From: an uncultured Alcanivorax sp.
GTDB taxonomy: Bacteria; Pseudomonadota; Gammaproteobacteria; Pseudomonadales; Alcanivoracaceae
Direction of reading: 5' to 3'
Assembly: GCA_913055795.1 (NCBI GenBank)
Contig: CAJXLA010000007.1
Span: forward strand, 1 to 50,479
Length of the DNA stretch: 50,479 nucleotides
Positions 32,988 to 50,479 of this stretch are shown piece after piece (within the stretch, counting starts at the first letter, position 1; the number at the start of each line of letters is the position of its first letter). A program made the translations under genes and the position numbers. The notes under the pieces were generated by a model that was not told the DNA's origin, ran no database searches, and was given only the letters and a program-made list of their open reading frames with translations.

Positions 32988-33239
32988 TCAGCGGCCGCGA
33001 CGGGCCCGGTGCTTTGCAATGGCTTCATGGATAATGGCTTCGGTGCGCGACGAGACGGCCTCTCCGGGCACGGGCACCACCGGCTCCGCAGCCGCCGCCG
33101 GCTCGTCCGCTTCCGGGAAGAAACGGTTGACCAGACGGGACATGACAGTGGTGGTTACCACCAGCGCGATCAGAAAACCGAAGACCACGCCCATGCCCAG
33201 CAACATCAGTTCCACGCCCTGCGCGAACAACGCATTCAT
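32988..33239 (-). CDS. oadG: sodium-pumping oxaloacetate decarboxylase, gamma subunit
   Basis: An 83-residue protein with one N-terminal transmembrane helix (about 10-32, [19 protein letters not shown]) and an Ala/Pro/Val-rich linker, typical of OadG, which joins the alpha subunit to the membrane and helps assembly. It is the first gene of the operon. The region upstream (33240-33400) has no clear promoter to my eye. Confidence 0.88.
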
Positions 33240-33527
33240 GGCGATCTACCCCCTGCCCAATAGCGCCGCCAGCCAGGCAGCGACAGCATAGTGGAACGGA
33301 CGCAAGGCCCGGGCCCACGGGAGGCGCAATGTACCGGGATTGTTGACAATTGGCAATGACGAACGCGGCCATTTTTTTTATACATTCAGGGAAATCAGGG
33401 AGTTGGAATGATACTCGGCGGTCATCAAGAACCCGGATGGGGAGCGATTGCGTTGCGGAGCATGGAGATCGGAACTGATGGGTTGGTCCCGTCCGGATCC
33501 GGATTGTGGCGCGGTTGCGCTTGCGAA

Positions 33528-34337
33528 CTCGCTGGTACACCCGATACTTACAAAAGAGGAGTCTTCGGAAGTTCAGTCATTGCGTTGTTTATCGGTGTCG
33601 TAGGGTGCGCTGTGCGCACCGTTCCAGCTCGGTGGAGTAGTTATCCGCCACACGAAGGTCCGGTCTTTGGCGGTTCCACCCGGCATTGAGCCGGGCGGAA
33701 CCGCGGGAGGATTACTCGGCCGCTAACGCGGCCTCGCCCTTCGGGCTGCCTAGCCTCGCGAGGCAATGCTGCGCGCCCGGGCGGGCGCTTGTGGCTCGCT
33801 AGCTGCGGCAGCTTCGCCGCCACCGCCCAATGCGTACATTGGGCGGTGGTCGAACGAGGGGTCTCCTTCGAACTCCCCGGTGCATCAGATATCCACAAGA
33901 AGGGAGCCTGTGGAGGTTCAGTCCCTTAAACTGCCGTGCGGTGCCGCAGGATGCGCCGTGCGCACCATTCCACTTTGGAGGTAAACCACCGCCGTCCAGA
34001 GTCGGACTTTGGCGGTTCCGCCCGGCATTGAGCCAGGCGGAACTGCGGGAGGATTGGCTCGTGGCCTATGGCCCCTCGCCGCCACCGCCCAATGCGGAAA
34101 TTGGGCGGTGGTCGAACGGGGGTTCTGCTTAGTAACGCCCCGGTGCACCAGATACCCACAAAAAAAGGGCCTGGCAGTGCGTCTTGCGCAGGTTTGGAGG
34201 CTGGGAACGCGGGAGGATTGACTCGCTGCCTGCGGCAGCTTCGTCGCCACCGCCCAATGCGTAAATTGGGCGGTGGTCGAACGAGGGGTTCTGCTTAACA
34301 GCTCCCCGGTGCACCAGATACCCACAAAAAAAGGGCC
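33528..34337 (+). repeat. array of tRNA-Arg 3'-end/terminator copies
   Basis: Four plus-strand copies of the tRNA-Arg tail plus terminator half-stem start at 33528 (heavily diverged), 33873 (a handful of changes), 34136 (one change in 36) and 34302 (identical to the tRNA tail read on the minus strand). Spacings are 345, 263 and 166 bases. The last three copies are preceded by a hairpin CCGCCCAAT-nnn-ATTGGGCGG and a GTCGAACG-GGGG box. Also repeated are GCGC/GCGC palindromes (33600-33626, 33946-33972) and a GCGGAAC-GCGGGAGGATT module (near 33690 and 34030). Short frames inside are not real genes. Confidence 0.8.
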
Positions 34338-34377
34338 TGGTGGCCCTTTTTTTGTGGGTATCTGGTGCACCGGGGAG
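34302..34377 (-). terminator. 36-bp perfect palindrome at the tRNA-Arg 3' end
   Basis: Arms 34302-34337 and 34342-34377 are perfectly complementary over 36 bases with a TGGT loop. The inner part (GGGCC plus a run of seven A/T) works as a terminator for the minus-strand tRNA-Arg and for plus-strand readthrough. The outer part is the tRNA acceptor end and CCA, present once in the gene and once inverted. Confidence 0.85.
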
Positions 34378-34439
34378 GATTCGAACCCCCGACCTTCTGG
34401 TTCGTAGCCAGATGCTCTATCCAACTGAGCTACCGGTGC
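34363..34439 (-). tRNA. tRNA-Arg (ACG)
   Basis: A complete cloverleaf on the minus strand: acceptor GCACCGG (from 34439) pairs with CCGGTGC, discriminator A and encoded CCA ending at 34363. Anticodon stem TCTGG/CCAGA with loop CTACGAA gives anticodon ACG (read as ICG). T arm GGGGGTTCGAATCCTCC. Confidence 0.97.
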
Positions 34440-34510
34440 TTGCTCGGCTTCGCCACTGGCGGCGAGAAGATGCGCATTATTCCGAACGGCCTCCGGGGAG
34501 TCAAGCCGAC

Positions 34511-34990
34511 TTATTCGCCCGTTTCTTCCATCTGCTTTTGCAGGTAGTTCTCCAGGCCCACCCTGTCGATCAGGCCGAGCTGGGTTTCCAGCCAGTCGAT
34601 ATGCTCTTCCTCGGACTGGAGGATGCGATCCAGCAGGTCCCGGGAGACGTAGTCGCGCACGGATTCGCAGTACTCGATCCCGTTGCGCAGGGTGGGCAAC
34701 GCCTGGTGTTCCAGCTTGAGGTCACACTCGAGCATCTCTTTGGTGTTCTCACCCACCAGCAGCTTGCCCAGATCCTGAAGATTGGGCACGCCCTCAAGGA
34801 AGAGGATACGTTCGATCAGCCAGTCAGCGTGGCGCATCTCGTCGATGGATTCGTTGTATTCGTGCTGGCCCAGCGCGGTCAGGCCCCAATCCTTGTACAT
34901 GCGTGCATGCAGAAAATACTGATTGATCGCGACCAGTTCATTGCCCAGCGCTTCATTGAGATACTGGGTTACCTTTTCATCACCGCGCAT
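34511..34990 (-). CDS. bfr: bacterioferritin
   Basis: A 159-residue 24-mer iron storage protein. Ferroxidase ligands are in place (Glu in [10 protein letters not shown], Glu and His in DEMRHADW, Glu in LKLEHQAL, Glu and His in EEEHIDW), and the haem-ligand Met is in DEMRHAD. The N-terminus is [16 protein letters not shown] Fur-like box lies about 100 bases upstream. bfd, its ferredoxin partner for iron release, is 1.2 kb away with one gene between. Confidence 0.97.
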
Positions 34991-49992: not shown

Positions 49993-50479
49993 TAGACATA
50001 AAAAAACCCGGCCAGGCGGGTTTTTTTTGTAGGGTGCGCCCGTGCGCACCTTTCCAGAGCCTTGGTGATCGATCAGCATGGAGGAATTGCCGGGTCTTGC
50101 CCCAATTCTGCGTTTTCCCGGGGCAAGTGATGGGGATTGCGAAGTCCATCTATGGACTTCGCCCTTCGGGCTGCGCCGGCTCGCGCCGGCTACGCGCCAA
50201 TTTGCTCCCGGCAAATGGGTCGAACAGAGGGTTCGAACCAAATACTCCCTCTCCGCCAGACATAAAAAAACCCGGGCTTGCCGGGTTTTTGTAGGGTGCG
50301 CCCGTGCGCACCTTTCCAAAGCCTTGGTGATCGATCGGTGGGGAGGGATTGCGCGCTCCTTCCCTGGAGCGCGTCCCTTCGGGACCCGCGCTTCGCGCGG
50401 TCCCAATTTGCTCCCGGCAAATGGGTCGAACAGAGGGTTCGAACCAAATACTCCCTCTCCGCCAGACATAAAAAAACCC
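49993..50479 (+). repeat. array of tRNA-Ser-like 3'-end/terminator copies, running off the right edge
   Basis: GACATAAAAAAACCC occurs at 49995, 50259 and 50465. The second and third copies are preceded by CTCTCCGCCA, which looks like the acceptor end of a tRNA-Ser; the first is decayed. Bases 50197-50273 and 50403-50479 are identical (77 bases). Each unit also has a GTAGGGTGCGC/GCGCACC palindrome (50029, 50291), short hairpins differing between units, an ATTTGC/GCAAAT hairpin and GGTCGAACAGAGGGTTC. No protein gene is supported in 49849-50479. Confidence 0.75.

Follow-up and report, generated by a model that had tools for sequence, protein, structure and literature searches.

Why should the 3' end of a tRNA gene be copied, again and again, into the DNA just behind it, and what keeps those copies faithful to the gene? 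The question is raised by a locus in the window, the whole 50,479-nt stretch of DNA analysed here, which is one contig (C7) of an Alcanivorax metagenome-assembled genome (MAG) with 169 contigs. E. coli rtT has been a poorly understood curiosity since 1991, and the array in the window is a variant of this known but unexplained kind. We put at roughly 55% the probability of our main reading, in which an rtT-type, tRNA-anchored array, a divergent relative of RtT, would be kept mainly by the copying of tRNA tails at the level of DNA and would give rise to conditional trailer RNAs at most. The main value of the comparison is not so much the single array of the window as the shared architecture and the breadth of distribution that it brought to light. 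It turns rtT from an E. coli oddity into a family with one architecture (a T-loop split between nt 57 and 58, a 19-nt direct tail and an inverted tail), and the purpose of rtT is now open to comparative and experimental testing. Repeat ends that are rewritten to match the adjoining gene are a rare case of concerted evolution, here linking a functional RNA gene with the repeats next to it.

The tRNA-Arg(ACG) gene and the tails that face it

The source of the copies is a tRNA-Arg(ACG) gene on the minus strand at 34363 to 34439, found by ARAGORN and by the Rfam tRNA model (71.2 bits). Its intrinsic terminator, A7-GGGCC-ACCA-GGCCC-T7, lies on the same strand at 34326 to 34353, where both the sequence and the palindrome mark it; being symmetric, it is predicted to be able to act on either strand. 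Our first-pass annotation placed four copies of the tRNA-Arg tail plus terminator opposite the gene, and a repeat search recovers all four tails on the plus strand. The innermost (34302 to 34337) comprises the 3' strand of the T-stem, the acceptor, CCA, the trailer and half of the terminator. The second (34138 to 34171) matches the complement of the gene side perfectly over 34 nt and the third (33873 to 33908) at 83% over 36 nt, while the fourth (33528 to 33557) is an outer remnant of the array. This last copy is real but decayed, since it is the 66% member of a direct family of four found by the same search at 33511 (66%), 33856 (68%), 34119 (the reference) and 34285 (93%). What does not extend to all four copies is the terminator: the complete hairpin occurs only at the inverted copy that touches the gene, and on the plus strand the others carry an A-run and no T-run.

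This difference bears directly on a second proposal of that annotation, namely that an independent plus-strand array faces the tRNA gene and produces RNAs whose 3' part is a tRNA-like CCA tail plus a terminator. Every copy does read ..CTCCCCGGTGCACCA and then the trailer on the plus strand, but A-runs stand in place of T-runs in three of the four copies, and the annotation of the homologous units in E. coli puts their expression on the tRNA strand. We consider such a plus-strand array very improbable.

Together with the gene, the innermost copy forms the perfect 36-bp palindrome that was originally described: 34302 to 34337 and 34342 to 34377 are 100% complementary over 36 nt (repeat search) and enclose a 4-nt loop. 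We rejected an intrinsic terminator or a REP palindrome as the sole explanation; the palindrome reaches into the tRNA gene, 24 bp past the terminator, and in relatives it covaries with that gene. The pattern of repeats stands far above chance, because the terminator accounts only for the innermost GGGCC/GGCCC stem and the A7/T7 tracts, and the other 24 bp enter the trailer and the 3' half of the tRNA. The linkers share a hairpin plus GGTCGAACG-GGGG, as had also been seen, in three 71-nt copies at 33792, 34054 and 34219. Spacings along the array are 345, 263 and 166 (repeat search), in agreement with the tandem units of ~180 bp that characterize RtT, and the units of the window and of its relatives lie, as RtT does, immediately 3' of a tRNA gene. 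An Rfam scan of the locus found only the tRNA; matches to eukaryotic miRNA and plastid families lay far below their cut-offs and were set aside as artefacts of the palindrome or the tRNA.

Could the array simply have been created by assembly? The source is, after all, a MAG in 169 pieces, and a second array in the window ends exactly at the contig break. Related arrays, however, occupy the same tRNA-Arg/bacterioferritin (bfr) locus in 13 Alloalcanivorax genomes, G014 and G065 of which are single-contig assemblies, and this argues that the window array is no artefact. The architecture is shared by the orthologous locus in isolate genomes, complete ones included, and by E. coli K-12, and we regard misassembly as exceedingly improbable. 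The closest relatives with the tRNA-Arg/bfr locus all belong to one family, Alcanivoracaceae. Alloalcanivorax mobilis (G029) has three units of 178 bp that are 98 to 100% alike, plus one partial unit; three genomes (G024, G010 and G014) have two units and nine (G021, G018, G003, G066, G034, G064, G065, G032 and G027) have one. The Alcanivorax species examined have no array at their tRNA-Arg locus and only an ordinary terminator. A search of relatives for similar arrays at this locus had been named at the outset as a check, and the finding survived it. The pairing is kept in every relative although the trailer differs among species, so both arms of the palindrome change together. As a separate observation, a long run of a 7-bp repeat (GCCGGAC), with its inverse 300 bp away, lies just past the A. 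mobilis array (L016, 2025 to 2345).

Homology to E. coli rtT and a second array in the window

E. coli rtT/RttR (RF00391) consists of 178-bp repeats downstream of tyrT-tyrV, and like the window array it is tandem and directly 3' of a tRNA. The RF00391 model itself finds no match at E<=1 in positions 33000 to 34700 of the window and does not reach its gathering score of 45 bits there; it does match several loci of the same type, and at two of these it exceeds that score (51.4 bits at L122 and 48.4 bits at L182). Because the window fails to match RF00391, we built a further covariance model. R1 derives from 20 units, including two window copies. The 42 matches behind R2 come from Pseudomonadales families other than Alcanivoracaceae, and the model holds no window or E. 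coli sequence, with the caveat that its input sequences were gathered and aligned with R1, which did hold the two window copies. With R2, every one of the four rtT units of E. coli K-12 is recovered (E 1.2e-11 to 5.2e-9), as are the five units of the window, three at tRNA-Arg (E 6.7e-7 to 3.4e-5) and two in the second array (1.3e-9 and 1.7e-8). In 54.8 kb and up to E 10, every match of R2 falls at an element locus, and the loci of relatives that lack the element give no match below E 0.1. Judged by these covariance models, the window units and E. coli rtT are homologous by way of intermediates, and the parallel with tyrT/rtT, at first drawn only as a likeness, has come out stronger than claimed. 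The window array is nonetheless a divergent rtT relative and no formal member of RF00391, since the RF00391 score failed and the full 19-nt tail is missing.

All three tRNA-Arg units lie on the minus strand. Unit 1 (34209 to 34310) scores 27.5 bits with R2 (E 1.5e-5) and 51.5 bits with R1, and its 3' end is a short direct copy of the tail, AATCCTCCC, at 34219 to 34211. Unit 2 (34045 to 34144) scores 32.4 bits with R2 (E 6.7e-7) and 52.6 bits with R1 and carries the same direct remnant at 34055 to 34047. Unit 3 (33703 to 33882) has a degenerate core, with 26.1 bits under R2 (E 3.4e-5) and 30.8 bits under R1 at 33782 to 33882. These eroded direct tails, which the first-pass annotation had overlooked together with the second array, undo the contrast that it drew between direct rtT copies and inverted copies here. 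An E. coli unit runs GGGGAAGGAT (inverted), AAGGTTCG, core and AATCCTTCCCCCACCACCA (19 nt, direct), and so it too has an inverted tail. The order common to E. coli and the window type is inverted tail, GGTTCGAC, hairpin core and the last 19 nt of the tRNA in direct orientation. The two differ in the tRNA concerned (Arg and Ser in the window, Tyr in E. coli), in the strong terminator that separates gene from array in the window, and in the state of the tails. In the window the inverted tail is near-perfect and reaches through CCA, trailer and terminator, whereas the direct tail is eroded: AATCCTCCC, 9 of its 19 nt, survives in units 1 and 2, and nothing of it in unit 3.

The second array, at 49994 to 50479, belongs to a tRNA-Ser beyond the contig end and neighbours a DnaJ-like gene. 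Its unit A (50340 to 50479, minus strand; 42.4 bits and E 1.3e-9 with R2) joins an inverted tRNA-Ser tail, CCCTCTCCGCCAGACATAAAAAAACCC on the plus strand, to an rtT-like core. Unit B follows at 50128 to 50273 (minus strand; 38.3 bits, E 1.7e-8), and an outermost terminator with a tail remnant, assigned by repeat family, lies on the minus strand at 49994 to 50026. The 77 nt at 50197 to 50273 in unit B are identical to 50403 to 50479 in unit A. A close version of this locus is present on another contig of the MAG (C132, L355), with tRNA-Ser(GGA), one unit and the DnaJ-like gene, whose leader is the same in both. The number of units differs between these versions, being one in C132 and two plus a remnant in the window. 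Both come from a single MAG, which may mix strains, and they may reflect a strain mixture or a duplication. Contig C23 of the MAG holds yet another array, at tRNA-Ser(CGA).

Two further Rfam families touch these loci. AaHKsRNA22 (RF02902, Aggregatibacter sRNA 22) stands in Rfam as a separate sRNA family; its model has no match in the window and does match a sister element at tRNA-Arg(TCG) (L131; 44.2 bits, cut-off 39.8). RtT and AaHKsRNA22 resemble one superfamily, and the families may need merging or revision. Matches to sX4 (RF02223) span tRNA-Ser and its terminator in element loci.

One architecture behind many tRNAs

Read along the tRNA strand, a unit consists of the inverted tail, tRNA nt ~49 to 57 (GGTTCG), AC, the hairpin core, GAATC and tRNA nt 58 to 76. 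We drew 72 loci with an exact direct copy ending in CCA from 191 tRNA loci with a T-loop motif downstream, and in 53 of the 72 the direct copy is exactly 19 nt long. That complete tail, an RtT hallmark, is present in those 53 loci of relatives and absent from the units of the window. The inverted tail is closer to its own tRNA than to other tRNAs in 130 of 160 loci and the direct tail in 135 of 160, both lower bounds because the compared set includes some loci without a unit. T-stem variants of the tRNA (CCCGC, CCCAC, CCCTC and TCCTGCCC) recur in the units next to it. These comparisons show that each unit is built from the 3' part of the adjoining tRNA and that its copies track the sequence of that tRNA.

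The cores contain motifs other than tRNA that are conserved across orders (GATGAGAA, GGACG, CCCCGAAGGGGTGAG and GAATCAATCC), and they share a consistent multi-hairpin fold with compensatory changes. With the A. mobilis unit as query, further cores were found in Alloalcanivorax and in genus g4, directly behind tRNA-Ser (GGA, GCT and TGA), each with an inverted copy of its own tRNA tail and a direct copy of the 3' half of its T-arm. Within Alloalcanivorax, core likeness is 0.773 for the same tRNA across species, 0.725 for different tRNAs within a genome and 0.713 for neither. Copying between loci appears to be rare, because same-tRNA cores across species are more alike than cores within one genome, and the cores at a given tRNA are, as far as these likenesses indicate, mostly inherited vertically. 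Frequent transposition between tRNAs is unsupported; same-locus cores are the most alike.

How far does this architecture reach? With R1, 52 of 392 Pseudomonadales genomes (29 of 143 genera) are seen to carry the element, and nearly all of its loci with checkable flanks lie 3' of tRNA-Ser, tRNA-Arg or tRNA-Gly. At E<=1e-4, R2 finds it in 126 of 369 gammaproteobacterial genomes (100 of 272 genera) and, across the phylum, in 65 of 398 genomes, one family outside the class included; 45 of the 53 best R2 loci are directly behind tRNA-Ser or tRNA-Arg. RF00391 alone detects 50 of 274 genomes and, among 14 control genomes, E. coli only. When 84,980 species genomes were scanned for the exact motif, 62 motifs turned up, in genera that include Rheinheimera, Rhodanobacter, Dyella, Pseudidiomarina, Salinicola and Pseudohongiella. 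Forty-nine of the motifs lie within 700 bp 3' of a tRNA, which is Ser in 38 cases, Arg in 6, His and Cys in 2 each and Gln in 1. The hosts overall are tRNA-Ser, Arg, Tyr, Gln, Gly, His and Cys and tmRNA, with two loci (L219 and L347) where rtT-like units immediately follow complete tmRNA (ssrA) genes. Units or the signature motif also occur under labels of distant taxa, namely Marivirga aurantiaca (L258), a Rickettsiales MAG (L238, L242, L246 and L270) and an Oscillospiraceae MAG (L256), through contamination or transfer. BIMEs and REPs are likewise intergenic hairpin clusters, and a similarity between rtT-like sequences and BIMEs has been reported (PMC2965389); unlike them, the units here stand behind tRNA or tmRNA genes and have ends specific to the host tRNA. 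A genome-wide interspersed REP or MITE was rejected, the core being unscattered and nearly every match lying 3' of a tRNA. Our literature search did not find the architecture described outside the RtT papers cited here.

A more sweeping generalization can be offered only tentatively, and we hold it rather doubtful: rtT-type units could be widespread, minimal, gene-less elements of Proteobacteria that set themselves precisely between nt 57 and 58 of tRNA and tmRNA 3' ends, adopt the host tail as inverted and direct copies, and stack as tandem cassettes, with E. coli rtT as the tRNA-Tyr case.

Proposed explanations: tail copying, trailer RNAs and recombination sites

Under our main reading, of repeats templated by tRNA tails, the inverted and direct copies would pair or recombine with the gene and so stay matched to it. 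Template switching or hairpin-mediated correction would keep the palindrome perfect, and unequal recombination between direct repeats would change the number of units. Because the tails would be matched in this way, even a functionless trailer would be mirrored in the inverted copy. The near-identical 178-bp units of A. mobilis and the versions of the tRNA-Ser locus that differ in unit number support such changes in copy number, and they agree with an E. coli strain that has lost one tRNA-Tyr gene and rtT (PMC12584984). A transcript that passed the tRNA terminator could fold its inverted tail onto the direct tail, forming a helix like that of acceptor and T-stem and ending in CCA, and this helix could let tRNA-processing enzymes free the units, as for E. 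coli rtT, whose release by such enzymes is reported in work that PMC4986893 cites. Against this reading, conserved core motifs without a tRNA origin across orders suggest selection on something specific and not neutral copying, and the apparent rarity of copying between loci weighs on the same side.

An alternative view is that read-through transcripts of the tRNA undergo tRNA 3' and 5' maturation to yield rtT-like small RNAs acting in trans, for example in the stringent response or as sponges. The annotation of rttR in E. coli starts immediately downstream of tyrV and reaches the CCACCA of the first unit, and RtT homologues beside tRNA-Asn and tRNA-Lys in Actinobacillus pleuropneumoniae give Northern signals (PMC4986893). 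Covariation supports an RtT structure with a tandem G-A motif (PMC7657543, PMC8250186), and the consistent fold of our cores, with its compensatory changes, fits the same picture. However, a strong tRNA terminator precedes the unit in the window and at most Pseudomonadales loci, and some units have a second terminator. The core stems show no excess of G.U over A.C either, at 34:61 against 41:70 in shuffled stems, but this weighs little: the tRNA control gives no signal (24:41), and a T-run biases the counts for terminators. On this evidence we think it unlikely that trans-acting RNAs are what the arrays are for.

The sharp boundary between nt 57 and 58 in many different tRNAs invites another account, in which the unit is the remnant of a minimal integrative element or an attB decoy, its core lying between nt 57 and 58 and its 19-nt copy being a displaced att core that shields the tRNA or lets elements stack. 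Direct repeats of the tRNA 3' end flank the element, as in tRNA-integrated elements, in those relatives with a complete direct tail (L131, L132 and L190, for example, some with a second copy of the terminator). The att sites of genomic islands that integrate into tRNA genes likewise repeat the tRNA 3' end directly, from the T-loop on, and tRNA-Ser, tRNA-Arg and tmRNA are common island sites. Several units have just the orphan tail of a tRNA in front of them and unrelated DNA before that, the arrangement seen at the distal end of an island (L121, L127, L133, L191 and L257), and at tRNA-Ser(GGA) a unit is present in Alcanivorax hongdengensis and in none of five congeners. On the other side, the units carry no gene, neither integrase nor cargo; they measure only ~160 to 190 bp; and they have an additional inverted tail foreign to normal att sites. 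No ORF lies within the units, and the only candidate for a linked recombinase is a 61-aa ORF just past the direct tail at L070 (825 to 1010), which by eye resembles the C-terminus of a tyrosine recombinase but lacks a Pfam match. The mostly vertical descent of cores at a given tRNA also tells against this account, and among 2.9 million viral contigs scanned for the motif there was one match. Phage carriage was rejected, that sole match being on a contig sized exactly like a Rheinheimera genome contig. In our judgement a recombination-site element of this kind is improbable. Integron sites of the attC kind were considered, with no feature in their support.

Further units stand behind only the last part of a tRNA with unrelated DNA ahead of them (L176, L259, L275 and L278), again as would be expected where a genomic island inserted in the tRNA comes to its distal end. 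Within the arrays of the window, an interspersed hairpin repeat, GTAGGGTGCGC..GCGCACC, occurs at 33599 to 33635, 33939 to 33981, 50024 to 50102 and 50286 to 50364, and it recurs elsewhere in the source genome, on eight further contigs or more.
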